64,000 bases of DNA from an uncultured Spartobacteria bacterium (GTDB lineage: Bacteria; Verrucomicrobiota; Verrucomicrobiia; Chthoniobacterales; Chthoniobacteraceae), in the NCBI GenBank assembly GCA_903882875.1, contig CAIRYQ010000028.1:1-64000 (forward strand). Direction: 5' to 3'. The position numbers were made by a program, and so were the translations under genes. Numbering within the stretch: the first letter of the stretch is position 1; each line of letters starts with the position of its first letter. The notes below the pieces were generated by a model. It was not told where the DNA came from. It searched no databases and was given only the letters and a program-made list of their open reading frames with translations. Shown here piece by piece: positions 227 through 62,749 of the stretch.

Positions 227-1837
227 TTATCGCAGGTAACGCAACGGAATCTGAATGAATCGGTTCGGATCGTTCGCCGCTTCATTCAGCCCGCTTACGA
301 TGTCGGTGGAGTTGAATAAACTGACATCGATCATCTTGCCGGTCGCGTGGTCATAGACGCGACGAACACCGCTGATGTATTCTATAAAGTCTGAATTGCT
401 GTCGTGGCGCGCTTTAGCCTGGGCGGCGATCCGCCGCTCATGATTCGCGAAGTTAATGGCCTGTTGGTCTTGAAAGTCCCGACCCGCCTTCATCAAAATC
501 TGGAACTTGTCCGCATAGATCTTCCGTATGGCCTCGCCGTTGCGCTGCTGCACCTGAGTCACCACATTCATGTTGAGGTTCACGCTGTTCAGAATGGTTT
601 GCATCACAGGCAGGTCGCGATCGAATATCTCGTCCGGGGCGCGCATATTACTCGTGCAGAGCTGCCATGCTTCACCCTTTGTCACGGGGGCCGTTTCCAG
701 CCGCTGAACCGCACGGGAATGTTTGATAGTGCCATCCGGGCTGTGGTCCGCGAATGCCAAATATGCGATTCCGGATTTCGAACCGGGTATGTAAGGATTG
801 GGATCACTTGGAAAGACCGCGATAATTTTCTCCACCGACGCATATCCTCGTCCGGTGCGTTGTCCCTTCGCCTCACGGATCGGGTACCAATATTTGAGCA
901 CCTCTTCAGATCCGTCACAATAGCGGCATATATTTAGCGCGGGGAACTCCACATTAGGATCGGCGTTGGGTGCCTTTGGCGGGATCGGCGGCCTTCCAAG
1001 CGGAATCTGGGGGTTGCGCTGGTGCCAATCCACCGCTTGCTGATACATCTGCATTTGGCGTTGGTAATTCAGCAACTGGATCTGATACGTCTGCCGCGTC
1101 GTGCGAATAGTTGCACATTCAGGGTCGGACATTAGCAGCGTCCCATGCCATGTTACCAATTGACCCTCGGGGCCCCGGACGCCGATTCCGTGTGCGGCGG
1201 TTTGATCCGGCGTCGTCCAACCATCCGGCAGATCGATGCTTCCGCTTTTGTCAGGAAACTCATGAGTCGTCATCTTGGTCGAGGGCGCAGGCATGAAGCC
1301 GAGCAGGGTCGTTAGCTCCTGCTTTGGAGCGTTCGCTGCTGCGAATACGATACTGGCCGTTCCCCCGCTCTTGTCCCAGCCACAGAAGATCAATCCGTGA
1401 ACGTCCCGCCCATTAAGATTCGCAGTGAGACTGACAACGCCCTTGCTTTTGCTTTGGGCATCGGCAAATGCGCCGCTGAGTGAGGGCTTGCCCCCAAATA
1501 GAGTGCTCAGTTCGTCGGCGGTGCGAGTCATCGCGGACTCCAGATTCTGTGCGTCTGGAAGTCTGATGAAAAGTGCTTTGCCCGTTTGTGTTTCACCGAG
1601 CACAATGAAGTTCCCGAACAATTGCACCTCATCCGATTGGCTGCCTTCAGCCGGTGCTCGCCCAGCATCGCCACGCGCAACCTGCAAAGTGCTGGGGCTG
1701 ATCCAGACGACGAGCGCGATTAGTGCGGGCATCCCGCTTCCTTTTAGAAACTTATTTTTATGCCAGTGAAACTGGAGGCAGTCGGAGCGCGATGCGGTCG
1801 CAGAAGGATTCATTTTTGTATCGTCGCTCGGGAGCAT
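227..1837 (-). CDS. Hypothetical secreted or membrane-anchored protein
   Basis: This 536-residue protein belongs to no family I recognise. The chosen ATG has a strong AGGAGG three bases upstream; the frame is open further, and a second ATG at 1732 has AGGAAG seven bases upstream and is a real alternative. A positively charged stretch followed by a hydrophobic segment at about residues 36-50 suggests export. The centre has a CRYC pair in LNICRYCDGSEE, and the second half is rich in Gln and charged helices (for example RQMQMYQQAVDWHQRNP), probably coiled-coil. Base composition is less GC-rich than in the core genes, and it lies beside a transposase tail, so recent acquisition is plausible. Function unknown. 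Confidence 0.6.
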   Translation of the reverse strand: MLPSDDTKMNPSATASRSDCLQFHWHKNKFLKGSGMPALIALVVWISPSTLQVARGDAGRAPAEGSQSDEVQLFGNFIVLGETQTGKALFIRLPDAQNLESAMTRTADELSTLFGGKPSLSGAFADAQSKSKGVVSLTANLNGRDVHGLIFCGWDKSGGTASIVFAAANAPKQELTTLLGFMPAPSTKMTTHEFPDKSGSIDLPDGWTTPDQTAAHGIGVRGPEGQLVTWHGTLLMSDPECATIRTTRQTYQIQLLNYQRQMQMYQQAVDWHQRNPQIPLGRPPIPPKAPNADPNVEFPALNICRYCDGSEEVLKYWYPIREAKGQRTGRGYASVEKIIAVFPSDPNPYIPGSKSGIAYLAFADHSPDGTIKHSRAVQRLETAPVTKGEAWQLCTSNMRAPDEIFDRDLPVMQTILNSVNLNMNVVTQVQQRNGEAIRKIYADKFQILMKAGRDFQDQQAINFANHERRIAAQAKARHDSNSDFIEYISGVRRVYDHATGKMIDVSLFNSTDIVSGLNEAANDPNRFIQIPLRYLR

Positions 1838-1920
1838 GAGCCTCCTTTCCGCTTTGCCAAGCGGCGATTGTAGCTGGGGATCTTGCTTTGAGACTCGATA
1901 CGAGCGATGCCAGCCTGTAA

Positions 1921-1985
1921 GTGCGATTCTGGGATTCGGTGACAATTTTTTCACTTCCAAAAATTCCCGGGTACCCCGGCACCGC
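1921..1985. repeat. Dispersed intergenic repeat, copy 1
   Basis: This stretch resembles 4929-4981 at the base level: both have GTGCGA, then a T-rich AATTTTT block, a CAA/AGAATTC block and ACCCCGG. Read on the minus strand both also give similar peptides, RGTREFLEVKK here and RGVREFLSWKN there. In both places the repeat forms the ragged end of a truncated open frame. Confidence 0.45.
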
Positions 1986-2187
1986 CTCGCGACTGCCATC
2001 TGGATTTTTCGGCGTGTTTAGCGACCGGTGAATGCCACGGCTTCACGATTCTGTGGACAGGAATTGAGGATACCCGTCCGGATTGTCCGAGGGGAACCGC
2101 ACCGTCTAGTTTCTCGACGATCGTCTCCTGCACAGCGCAAAGCTGGCCGAGGAGAGCGAAGGTGAACGTGAAGAAGATGGATTTCAT
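1951..2187 (-). pseudogene. Remnant of a secreted-protein gene (signal peptide only)
   Basis: A 78-codon frame opens with a convincing signal peptide, MKSIFFTFTFALLGQLCAV, then carries about 25 more plausible residues before running into the dispersed repeat at 1921-1985. It lies 68 bases downstream of the heparinase-like pseudogene on the same strand, as a following operon gene would. I read it as the N-terminal stump of a lost secreted protein. A short genuine secreted peptide is the alternative; no clear ribosome binding site is visible. Confidence 0.3.
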
Positions 2188-2255
2188 TTGCGCGCAGCGC
2201 GGCGAGCGGTGCGAGCGGCAGATTGGAGGTTCTCATCGGCGCGAAGCCTGCGGCA

Positions 2256-3125
2256 TCACTTCACCGTCGCGTGGGTGTGGATGGTGAAGTGGTTCCCGCC
2301 GGTGAACTCGCGGCGGGGGAAGAAGATTTCTTTGGGCACGCTGCCTTGGATGCGGAGGCCAGGGTCGTCCTTGAGAACGATCCACGTCTTGCCATCGCGA
2401 ACGGCGACGTGGTCGATCTCGAAAGCATCGGTGGTGCCGGCGGTTCAGAGCGCGACGTGCATCCAAGTGCCGCGCAGGGTCTCGCCTGCGGGGTGCGCGA
2501 TGCGGTGGCGATGAAGGCGTTCTCCGCGGCGCCGTCCCACTTGCTGGGGATGGGTTCGATGACGCCGCGATGGCTCGCGATGGGCGATGTCACGTGCAGA
2601 GCGCCGGATTGCAGATCGGTGCCGCCGATGAGACAGCCGCTGGCCGGGCCGTTCCGCGGAGTGGAGACTAGCGCGGCGATGCCGTGCATCGTTGCGGCTG
2701 CGGTCGAGCACCGTGCGCCCGGCGGACGGCCACTCGATCGGCGAGACAAATTCATCGTGACGATTGTCGCCGGGCGTGTTGAGAAAAGCCGCGCGGTCGT
2801 CGAGCGGGAACTGCGCGGTCGGAAATGTCACACCGCACTTCACACAAGTGATGCGATCCGGCGGCGCAAACTTCCACAGATTCCGGTCCAGCTCGCGCGT
2901 GTAGTGCCCGTGGCCGCAGGCCGGACAATCCGACGTGATGAACGGCGTCTGCACCGGCACCAGCGCCACCGCGTTCGCCTCGGTCAGCGCGAGGAACGGC
3001 TGCACCTCCGCTTCCAACTGCGCGCGGCTCTTCGCTCCGAGATCATGCTCCAGCAGCGGCTTCGCCAGCGTCCCGGCCAGCGCGAGCGATGCGCCAAAAA
3101 CGATGAGCGTGATGACGACTTTCAT
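2256..3125 (-). pseudogene. Heparinase II/III-like gene, deleted, frameshifted and interrupted
   Basis: The ATG overlaps the stop of the upstream esterase gene (ATGA), so this was the second gene of that operon. The first ~125 residues are a normal secreted start: a signal peptide, then CPACGHGHYTRELDRNLWKF and a second CVKCGV pair, as seen at the N-terminus of some heparinase II/III-type polysaccharide lyases. After about 2760 the sense-bearing frame changes (GVIEPIPSKWDGAAENAF is in another frame), then returns to the first frame. That frame meets a TGA at 2445-2447 and continues as FEIDHVAVRDGKTWIVLKDD to a final TGA at 2256. Intact family members are several hundred residues longer, so the centre is deleted. 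Non-functional with good confidence; the family name is less certain. Confidence 0.6.
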
Positions 3126-4699
3126 CGGCGGGCAGCGCGAGGACTCGTGTCCCAATCATCCGTGCGGAACGTCTGCGCGGGAAGGCCGTCTTGGTTGAAG
3201 AGATTCGCCCACGGTGCGTTGCTCGACCACGCGTAGCGCACGCCGGCGGGCTTTGGAATCGCGGCGCTGGAGACGACGACGCAGTCGCCGTCGATCGCCG
3301 CATCGGCCCAGACGAACTTCTTGTCCTCACCGGCGATGAGGAAGCCCTGGAGCTTGTCGGCGTGACGCGCGGCGAGCCCTTTGCCGACATGCGTGAACTT
3401 GATGCGCACCTTGTCGCCCACGATCTCATGCGAGGCGTAAAGCGGCCCGCTGAATTCGACTTTCTGGCCATAGACAAACCCTTTCGCCACGAGCAGCGCG
3501 CGGTCGGCGTAACCCGATTTGTTCACCGGATGCGTCATGCCGCCGAGGTCGGTGCTGGTGACCATGGCGGTGTTAGGTTGCTGTTGAATCTTGATGTGAA
3601 CCTCGCGGGCGATGCCTTCCTTATCAGCGGGCACCTTGGCGGGCAGCGCGGTGAAAGGGCTTGCGTTCTTCGTGGTCGGATTCGCAAGATCCCACGCGGT
3701 GCCACCGCCGCTGGGCTTCTGCATGTAGAGGAATGGGAAGTCCTGCCCCCACGCCTTGCGCCAGCCTTTGATCAGCGCGCCCATGACACGGAATTGATCC
3801 ACACCCGTGATGCCCGTGCCGCCCTCGCCTTGATCCCACAGCACGCCCCGAATCGCATACGGCACATAAGGCAGCACATGCGCGGCGTAGAGATGGCCAA
3901 ACTCGCCCACGCACTCACCCGGCTGCTGCGGTTTCGTAGGCTCGCGACCGACTTTCCCGCCACTTTGCTTTGCCTTTTCCGCATTCGCTTTCCACGCGAT
4001 CATGTAGCGCTCGTAGCCGTTCATCGCGCTGGCAAAGTCATAGGTCTTCGCAAACTCCTTCACCTGCGCCATGCAGGCCGCATCGCTGCGATACATCTCC
4101 TCCGTGAGCCAGTAACCCGAAGGCGTGCCGCCCACCGCGCCGGTCATCAGCCCCACCGGCACGCCGAGTTCCGCGTGCAGACGCGAGCCAAAGGCGAAAA
4201 GGATCGCAGAAAAAGTATCCACGTTCTCCGCCGTCGCGAGCTGCCAGCCCGCGCCACCTTGTTTGATCAGACGGATGCGTGGATACGGGGCGGCGGCCAG
4301 CGTCTTCTGCAAGCCCTCGTCATTCCCGCGAAACGTGCGCATCGGCCCCGCCATGTTCGACTGCCCCGAGCCGAGCCATACCTCGCCGACGAGCACATCC
4401 ACAATCGTCAGCGTCTCTTTCGCCCGAACCACCAAAGCTCGCGCCTCGCCACTCGCAGACAGTTTGTCCAATCGCAGCATCCAACGGCCCGTCGCATCCG
4501 CCCTTGCAGTCTTTGTCTGCCCGGCGAACTCCACGCTCACAACATCTCCGGGACTTGCAGAGCCCCACACCGGAATCGACAGGTCTTGCTGAAGCACCAT
4601 GTGATCGGAGAAGACTGGCGGAAGTTTCAATTCGCCCGCTTGCAAAGCACCCAAGGAACCGAACAGCAGTGCCGTAAGACGTGTGAGAATGCGCTTCAT
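3122..4699 (-). CDS. Secreted sialate O-acetylesterase (SGNH hydrolase)
   Basis: This 525-residue enzyme of the sialate 9-O-acetylesterase type removes O-acetyl groups from sialic acid or other glycans outside the cytoplasm. The start at 4699 gives a clean signal peptide (MKRILTRLTALLFGSLGALQA); the frame runs to 4801 but the extra residues do not look like an export signal. Diagnostic motifs are LPPVFSDHMVLQQ at the mature start, a beta-sandwich segment, the nucleophile block GSGQSNMAGPM, an oxyanion-type GGTPSGYWLT, and the late HP motif THPVNKSGYADR. It overlaps the broken heparinase-like gene by four bases, indicating a former polysaccharide-degradation operon whose downstream part has decayed. 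Confidence 0.88.
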   Translation of the reverse strand: MKRILTRLTALLFGSLGALQAGELKLPPVFSDHMVLQQDLSIPVWGSASPGDVVSVEFAGQTKTARADATGRWMLRLDKLSASGEARALVVRAKETLTIVDVLVGEVWLGSGQSNMAGPMRTFRGNDEGLQKTLAAAPYPRIRLIKQGGAGWQLATAENVDTFSAILFAFGSRLHAELGVPVGLMTGAVGGTPSGYWLTEEMYRSDAACMAQVKEFAKTYDFASAMNGYERYMIAWKANAEKAKQSGGKVGREPTKPQQPGECVGEFGHLYAAHVLPYVPYAIRGVLWDQGEGGTGITGVDQFRVMGALIKGWRKAWGQDFPFLYMQKPSGGGTAWDLANPTTKNASPFTALPAKVPADKEGIAREVHIKIQQQPNTAMVTSTDLGGMTHPVNKSGYADRALLVAKGFVYGQKVEFSGPLYASHEIVGDKVRIKFTHVGKGLAARHADKLQGFLIAGEDKKFVWADAAIDGDCVVVSSAAIPKPAGVRYAWSSNAPWANLFNQDGLPAQTFRTDDWDTSPRAARR

Positions 4700-61272: not shown

Positions 61273-61593
61273 ATGCACGAGGACGTCTTTCTCCTCATCA
61301 GCAATTTCCCCGGTGCGGACACCGCACGGAAGGCCGTGCGCCTGCTCGTGGAGGAGCGGTTGATCGCGTGCGGCAATCTCATCATGGGCGTCGAGTCCAT
61401 TTACGAATGGAAAGGCAAGATTGAGAACGCGAACGAGGTGATGGTGATCGCGAAGACCACTGCGGATCGCGCGGAGGCAGCGATGGCGCGGCTGCGCGCG
61501 CTGCATCCGTACGAAGTGCCGGAGATCCTGCTCGTGCCCGTGACCACCGGCTGGCCCGATTATCTCGCGTGGGTGGCCGCGCAGTGCAGGTGA
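61273..61593 (+). CDS. cutA: CutA1 divalent-cation tolerance protein
   Basis: A 106-residue trimeric ferredoxin-like protein of normal family length. It carries the family blocks ARKAVRLLVEERLIACGNLI, SIYEWKGKIENANEVMVIAK and LHPYEVPEILLVPVTTGWPD, with YLAWV at the end. It is linked to copper and other divalent-cation tolerance, although its exact role remains debated. Four bases separate it from mnmA. Confidence 0.94.
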   Translation: MHEDVFLLISNFPGADTARKAVRLLVEERLIACGNLIMGVESIYEWKGKIENANEVMVIAKTTADRAEAAMARLRALHPYEVPEILLVPVTTGWPDYLAWVAAQCR

Positions 61594-61666: not shown

Positions 61667-62749
61667 ATGACGCGCATCATTTTTCTCCCCCTGCTACTCA
61701 CGCTCGCGTGCGCGTGCGCGTCCGGTGCAGAAAAAAATGCACCTCCATCGCTGCCACAGGGCGAGGAGTTGCGCCGCTGGTTTTCACTCGTGAAAGAGGT
61801 CGAGCGCGGGCTGGAGCACGGAGACAATCGCTACGGTTTTCAGATGAAGAAAATGCACGTCCACGCGAAGGTGCTGCGCGACGGCGCGGTGATCGGCGCG
61901 TTCCGTTCCGAGACTTCCTCGACGTGCGTGGACGGCGAGATCGCGAGCTTCAACATCGCGCGCGCGCTCGGATGCGGCGAACTTTTCCAACCCGCCGCGC
62001 CGATCACGCTGCGCGGAAAAGGACTCGCGACGCTGAAGCAGCTCATGACCGAGGCGCGCTTCCCCGACACAGAGAAGGAGGACGACCGGCTGCAACTGCT
62101 CCAGGAAATCGAGGACAATCCGGGCGGGATGCGCGGCGATTTCCGGATGGCGACGCCGGAGAATGCGGAAAAATATCACGCCATCGAGTCGCCGGCAGCG
62201 CCGCCAAACGGCGGGCTGAACGAGCAGGATCGCGTGGCGGTGTTTTTGAAATCGGGCGCGCCGCAGCCCGGCACCGCGAAGCTGAAACTCAAGGGCCTCG
62301 ACTGCCACGCGCCCGCGGTGAGCCTCGCGCGCGAGCTGTCGGACATCCTGCTCGTGGACGCGCTCGCAGGTCAGTGGGACCGCTTCAGCGGCGGCAATCT
62401 GCATGTCGTGGGGACGAAGAAGCACGCGCATTTCCTCGCCGTGGACAACGGCGGTGCGAGCTTCGAGGATGATCAGGGTTACATGGCGCTGTTCAAAAAA
62501 TGGGTGACGCGTTTTGACCGGCGGGTCGTCACACAGCTTTTCGCGCTGGAGGAGTTTTTCGATTCGCAGAAAGAAGGCGTGCCCGCGGCGGAGCGTGGAA
62601 AATTCCTCGGCTTCAGCGATGAGAAGTCGCTCGCCGATGCAATGAGCATCTCCATGACGAAGGACTGGGAGCTGTTCAAGAAACGCGCGAAAGAAGTCGC
62701 GGAGCATGTGCGCTCGATCGGCGGCGAAGGAAAGTATTTCGAGGAATGA
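61667..62749 (+). CDS. Secreted protein with Fam20C/actin-fragmin-type kinase motifs
   Basis: A 360-residue exported protein, probably a lipoprotein (LLLTLACACASG at residues 9-20). The centre resembles atypical secretory kinases: FRSETSSTCVDGEIASFNIA with Glu91 on a helix, ALGCGELFQPA, then DALAGQWDRFSGGNL (Asp238-Arg239, Asn244) as the catalytic loop. AHFLAVDNGGASF (Asp260) acts like the DFG metal site. The D-R-x(4)-N followed by D-N-G layout is as in Fam20C, HipA-like and actin-fragmin kinases. Phosphotransfer outside the cytoplasm is therefore possible. The nucleotide-binding lysine cannot be fixed by eye. Confidence 0.55.
   Translation: MTRIIFLPLLLTLACACASGAEKNAPPSLPQGEELRRWFSLVKEVERGLEHGDNRYGFQMKKMHVHAKVLRDGAVIGAFRSETSSTCVDGEIASFNIARALGCGELFQPAAPITLRGKGLATLKQLMTEARFPDTEKEDDRLQLLQEIEDNPGGMRGDFRMATPENAEKYHAIESPAAPPNGGLNEQDRVAVFLKSGAPQPGTAKLKLKGLDCHAPAVSLARELSDILLVDALAGQWDRFSGGNLHVVGTKKHAHFLAVDNGGASFEDDQGYMALFKKWVTRFDRRVVTQLFALEEFFDSQKEGVPAAERGKFLGFSDEKSLADAMSISMTKDWELFKKRAKEVAEHVRSIGGEGKYFEE

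Follow-up and report, generated by a model that had tools for sequence, protein, structure and literature searches.

A candidate exported kinase-like family in Spartobacteria and its place beside the PI3/4-kinase-like and Fam20-like proteins

The interior of the cell, where ATP is found, is the normal site of action of kinases, and outside the cytoplasm ATP is scarce. An exported kinase is therefore unusual, and in bacteria, to our knowledge, scarcely any are known to act beyond the cytoplasm. The locus studied here raises this very question. In the window, namely the whole stretch of 64,000 nucleotides of Spartobacteria DNA that was analysed, one gene encodes a protein of 360 residues that joins an export-like N-terminus with motifs of a kinase-like active site. 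What is this protein, and to which kinases, if any, is it related? With an exported family of such kinases in bacteria, the questions of donor, target and origin would become testable in a simple system. Searches among open-licence papers gave no title on an exported Verrucomicrobial kinase, and the available portions of PMC7948968, PMC10870513, PMC5865150 and PMC12599244 make no mention of a bacterial exported family of such kind. With moderate confidence, we take the protein to be periplasmic or envelope-anchored, a member of the protein-kinase-like superfamily standing near the bacterial PI3/4-kinase-like and Fam20-like kinases, with probable nucleotide binding and phosphate transfer.

The gene, its N-terminus and its neighbourhood

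The open reading frame is genuine according to the list of frames and its translation, and it runs from an ATG start through 360 codons to a stop (Table 1). Its sole close relative found, L002, is 75% identical and lies on the same contig as L003 (JANXZI010000792.1, a Spartobacteria MAG), so that the family is known from only two sequences. Comparison of the two over 357 codons gives pN/pS 0.41, dN 0.174 and dS 0.527, that is a dN/dS of about 0.33, which indicates purifying selection. No kinase match to the protein was found in Pfam, NCBIfam, PADLOC or the PDB sequences. In Pfam neither the Fam20C model nor PF00454 (PI3_PI4_kinase) was listed at E up to 10, and the same holds for CotH and actin-fragmin kinase, for which the Pfam model was the one comparison made. 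A match to HepII_C (E 0.03-0.09) was set aside, being far below the cut-off of that model.

Table 1. Features of the locus and what each assignment is based on
Feature	Position	Strand	Basis
CutA1, upstream neighbour (context)	61273..61593	+	Pfam; same order in relative
CDS, exported kinase-like protein	61667..62749	+	ORF and translation; homologue L002; purifying selection
Export signal, residues 1-21; Cys15 (61709-61711) a possible weak lipobox cysteine	61667..61729	+	Sequence; hydrophobicity 2.85; C15 also in L002
Predicted beta2-beta3 hairpin, residues 63-83; K68 in first strand, R80 at beta3-lysine position	61853..61915	+	Alignments; FAM20C beta3 'LFKP'; hairpin in both low-confidence models
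E91, putative alpha-C glutamate (GEIASFNIARAL; FAM20C: AEIAAFHLDRIL)	61937..61939	+	Sequence; FAM20C letters
Putative catalytic loop D238-R-F-S-G-G-N244	62378..62398	+	Translation, alignments, hhalign
Putative metal-site motif D260-N261-G262	62444..62452	+	Translation, hhalign, four-row alignment
Predicted C-lobe helix segment VTRFDRRVVTQLFALEEFFD, aligned to second-family SHMDPKTYNRLLDLQKEL	62504..62563	+	Alignment

The earlier note on this DNA had given the protein an export signal together with a probable lipid anchor, and the first part stood while the second was weakened. At the N-terminus, MTRIIFLPLLLTLACACASGA, there is a hydrophobic core like that of a signal peptide, with a Kyte-Doolittle mean of 2.85 over 10 residues (2.87 in L002), which also agrees with the secretory or export signal expected of Fam20 proteins. 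Cys15 is common to both sequences and is preceded by T or A at position -3 and L at -2; by the standard of the lipobox consensus, this T/A-L-A-C is weak. Since signal-peptidase-I-like sites also follow downstream of Cys15, a lipid anchor through this residue is plausible and should be claimed at no greater strength.

According to Pfam, the gene comes after mnmA and cutA, and a gene for a squalene/phytoene synthase faces it; the gene of L002 likewise adjoins cutA and mnmA. It occurs in two of ten genomes of the genus, in 2 of 38 relatives and in 1 of 387 genomes drawn from the phylum, the last being its own genome, while CutA is present in nine of the ten genus members. In the genomes G004 (whose CutA is 88% identical), G001, G005 and G007, a metallophosphoesterase-like gene adjoins cutA with no kinase-like gene between them; in G003 the kinase-like gene sits exactly between cutA and the position of the metallophosphoesterase-like gene (L002 against L076, L081, L082 and L083). 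This pattern of presence and absence at the cutA site means that the gene is an accessory one at a fixed location. No relative was found in plasmids, phages or viral contigs, and a contig scan with patterns taken outside the catalytic motifs returned only the known relative. Queries from the second family described below also found no relative in plasmids, phages or viral contigs, a 54-residue core giving only matches at E 0.8-9.

Motifs of the active site

The order of a Glu helix, D-R-x(4)-N and D-N-G, which was noticed earlier, is borne out: the two Asp motifs are found at the residues first given for them, and all three elements are invariant in L002 and collinear with kinase-like families. 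E91 sits within VDGEIASFNIARALG, and where FAM20C has NAEIAAFHLDRIL in alpha-C the protein has DGEIASFNIARAL. Among nine aligned sequences D231, Q236, D238, R239 and N244 are invariant, and in a four-row alignment D238, R239, N244 and D260 are kept. The alpha-C Glu, catalytic Asp, Asn and metal Asp expected of a kinase thus all have a counterpart, namely E91, D238, N244 and D260. In the mechanism that we propose, a nucleotide would probably be bound between the C-lobe and the N-lobe hairpin with the alpha-C helix carrying E91; D238 would serve as the catalytic base while N244 and D260 bind the metal, and the phosphate would be passed to an envelope or extracellular target.

The beta3 region departs from this picture. 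The beta3 lysine is needed for canonical activity and not for the fold, and in WNK kinases it is supplied from a neighbouring strand. When GQALFKPMKQ of FAM20C is set against GAVIGAFRSE of our protein, the lysine of F-K falls on R80, and an alignment of low identity shows that this arginine apparently replaces the lysine in L002 too. K68 lies in the preceding strand and perhaps stands in for it. With Arg80 at this position, nucleotide binding must be non-canonical, or else the protein is a pseudokinase. In Fam20C a second Glu that precedes the one of alpha-C by five residues (E213 of ceFam20) matters, as far as the available part of PMC5865150 tells, and by counting this position falls on T86. 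Because of the apparent Arg80 and the missing Fam20 active-site Glu, we do not assign the protein to Fam20, and it may be a pseudokinase, that is, an exported protein using a kinase-like fold for binding or scaffolding with no phosphotransfer. Export into an ATP-poor space would fit such a role; however, pseudokinases usually lose some of the four active-site residues, and all are kept here, so that we regard this alternative as possible but rather unlikely.

Profile comparisons with kinase-like families

Relatives among bacterial PI3/4-kinase-like proteins were reached in two ways. A core profile matched 8 of 384 genomes, its own and seven others; among the four frames read (L031, L032, L035 and L037) only L035 (E 0.028) is kinase-like, and L033, L034 and L036 were left out of this reading. 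A search of 387 genomes matched two, its own and that of L028, whose frame was left unread. L035 is the same gene as in L038, whose kinase region matches (2e-12) a Comamonas plasmid protein annotated as phosphatidylinositol 4-kinase, WP_231043629.1, which just passes PF00454 with 27.7 bits against a cut-off of 27.1. The L038 gene (positions 1722-4559) is a Verrucomicrobial frame of 946 residues with a C-terminal PI3/4-kinase-like domain; the Comamonas plasmid gene adjoins an annotated type III secretion chaperone. Independently, PF00454 itself found L044, L045 and L047 in two of 141 genomes of the class, and in a third genome, the one that carries the studied gene, its sole match was a HipA-like frame that scored below the cut-off.

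In hhalign the 360-residue protein together with L002 scores 28.6 with this PF00454-found trio, which none of 150 shuffles reaches (maximum 22.2), the match extending across the catalytic loop and the D-N site; the similarity to accepted kinase-like members is thus beyond the controls. Taken singly, the trio scores 27.3, 25.2 and 25.0, and the highest score among 70 unrelated natural proteins is 23.2; the Comamonas protein alone is outscored by 5 of these 70. All five PI3/4-kinase-like sequences together give 39.2 (0 of 200 shuffles, maximum 25.9), a set that includes L038, itself found with a profile containing our protein. The best direct matches of the protein are bacterial PI3/4-kinase-like proteins. 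The proposal that it phosphorylates proteins gained no support.

A variant of our preferred reading follows from the same comparison, namely that the protein is a lipid or glycan kinase, an exported relative of the PI3/4-kinase-like proteins or of Fam20B-type xylosylkinases with an envelope lipid or sugar as substrate. In the available part of PMC9758233, the FAM20/CotH families are placed beside the phosphatidylinositol kinases LepB and AnkK, four Legionella families join the FAM20/CotH group along with these two, and the FAM20 clusters are eukaryote- or Metazoa-specific. However, PF00454 has no match on the protein, and the substrate does not follow from a fold family; we hold this variant only tentatively.

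The second set of relatives comes from its own order. When a two-row profile was searched against 213 genomes of the order, weak matches at the catalytic loop (E 0.02-0.08) appeared in four genomes of the genus g234; at E<=0.1 there were 12 matching genomes, comprising two of its own family, four of this second family (L013, L015, L016 and L018) and six judged from their frames to be chance. A search of 40 genomes at E<=10 matched eight, and beyond the two real ones, L004, L005, L006 and L008 are without kinase-like features (L007, L009, L010 and L011 were left out of the frame reading). The second family, with members such as L013-L026 and L052-L074, is present in 11 of 35 genomes of g234, and no Pfam kinase model matches it, though its profile resembles FAM20C. 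Against 16 of its domains, the protein with L002 scores 44.6 over 162 columns, reached by none of 200 shuffles (maximum 27.2) and, in a repeat, by none of 100; the reversed profile gives 11.3. The homology to other kinase-like proteins suggested earlier thus rests on scores that, for two kinase-like sets, no shuffled control reaches.

The second family is partly exported, since a strongly hydrophobic N-terminus is seen in five of the 19 rows for which there is a candidate start, and some of its proteins carry PG_binding_1 C-termini (9.3e-10 in L018). Its genes or domains often stand in tandem, as in L018 (424-3087), L024 (1123-2748), L026, L072 and others of g234. In L020, genes for Amidase_2 and YkuD (L,D-transpeptidase) on the reverse strand adjoin tandem kinase-like genes, a neighbourhood hinting at a cell-wall context.

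Could the motifs be due to chance in a protein of some other fold? The lack of library matches would agree with this, and so would the structure predictions, for AlphaFold gave a pLDDT of 39.7 with two rows and 42.0 with 18, and the latter model returned no kinase with Foldseek and VIA, a search treated as uninformative. In both very-low-confidence models there are elements that a kinase would have, namely a hairpin, a helix containing E91 and, late in the chain, a pair of strands, which is only a hint. The profile scores beyond all shuffles for both sets, and the collinear order of the motifs, make such an explanation improbable.

The relation to Fam20 itself is complicated by gap-rich alignments of the second family, in which stray shuffles scored above 130: one of 100 in one Fam20 run and, in a later run, one of 100 for Fam20, two of 100 for the PF00454 trio and one of 60 for the HipA-like protein, falling to none of 150 after the gap-rich columns were dropped. 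With these columns dropped, the second family scores 39.5 with the Fam20 set (maximum 22.7 in 150 shuffles), and its score with the PF00454 trio is reached by one of 150 shuffles. With human FAM20C it scores 37.0, against a maximum of 25.5 among 70 unrelated natural proteins. In the PDB, profile A6 placed FAM20C first (human E 1.2, zebrafish E 2.4) in three collinear pieces, whereas FAM20C was absent with the 16-row profile A7, which had no match, and with the 4-row A8, which gave non-kinases; Fam20 was chosen as comparator after topping the A6 list, though the earlier note had named it beforehand. Despite these likenesses of the second family and of A6, we think it very improbable that the protein is a true bacterial Fam20 member acting as a secreted protein kinase, as first suggested, because its own score with four Fam20 sequences (19.85) is background, since 2 of 100 shuffles and some natural proteins without any relation to it score as high, and it appears to depart from Fam20 at both the E213 and beta3-lysine positions. 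HipA, the other family proposed for profile comparison, fared likewise, the one HipA-like sequence used, L048, giving a background score of 17.7 that 13 of 60 shuffles reach.

Comparison with known systems

On these sequence comparisons, the protein would best be read as representing a kinase-like family within the PI3/4K-Fam20 group that is new, rare and exported. A far bolder and improbable extension is that two lineages in this order, one of them with peptidoglycan-binding domains, are true kinases of the extracytoplasmic space, which would phosphorylate proteins or glycans of the envelope there and have a common ancestry with the Golgi and secretory kinases of animals; if so, secretory kinases would be matched in bacteria by a group that solves the phosphate-donor problem in its own way.

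Among the systems compared, the HipA-like protein L048 (contig C107 of the same genome) has a loop, LDALIGNTDRHHEN, of the same broad class; its frame (L048, 5965-6972) directly follows a gene reading as a type I restriction specificity subunit. FAM20C, FAM20A and FAM20B resemble the protein in alpha-C (AEIAAFHLDRIL against GEIASFNIARAL), in LDVMDMTIFDFLMGNMDR, in LDNG and in secretory location, but their loop is DRHHYE instead of DRFSGGN and no direct profile score is significant, and the protein has R80 for the beta3 lysine, T86 at the E213 position and no QCC motif. The second family shares the hairpin, the alpha-C segment, the D-x(4)-Q-x-D-R loop followed by Asn and the C-lobe helix, has KDND as counterpart of the D-N site and shows several signal-like N-termini. 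In contrast, it is larger, has two domains (as tandem genes or in one chain), a PG-binding C-terminus in some members and a long insert before the D-N site, because of which this site is misaligned to ours in the 18-row alignment, fragment rows being no cure; it keeps the beta3 lysine and is without Glu at the aligned alpha-C position. The bacterial PI3/4-kinase-like proteins (L044, L045, L047, L038 and WP_231043629.1) have frames of about 700-1100 residues, and PF00454, their family model, has no match on our protein, but they share with it L-S-D-L-x-x-x-D-x-[IL]-x-G-Q-x-D-R, followed by G-N and [IV]-D-N.
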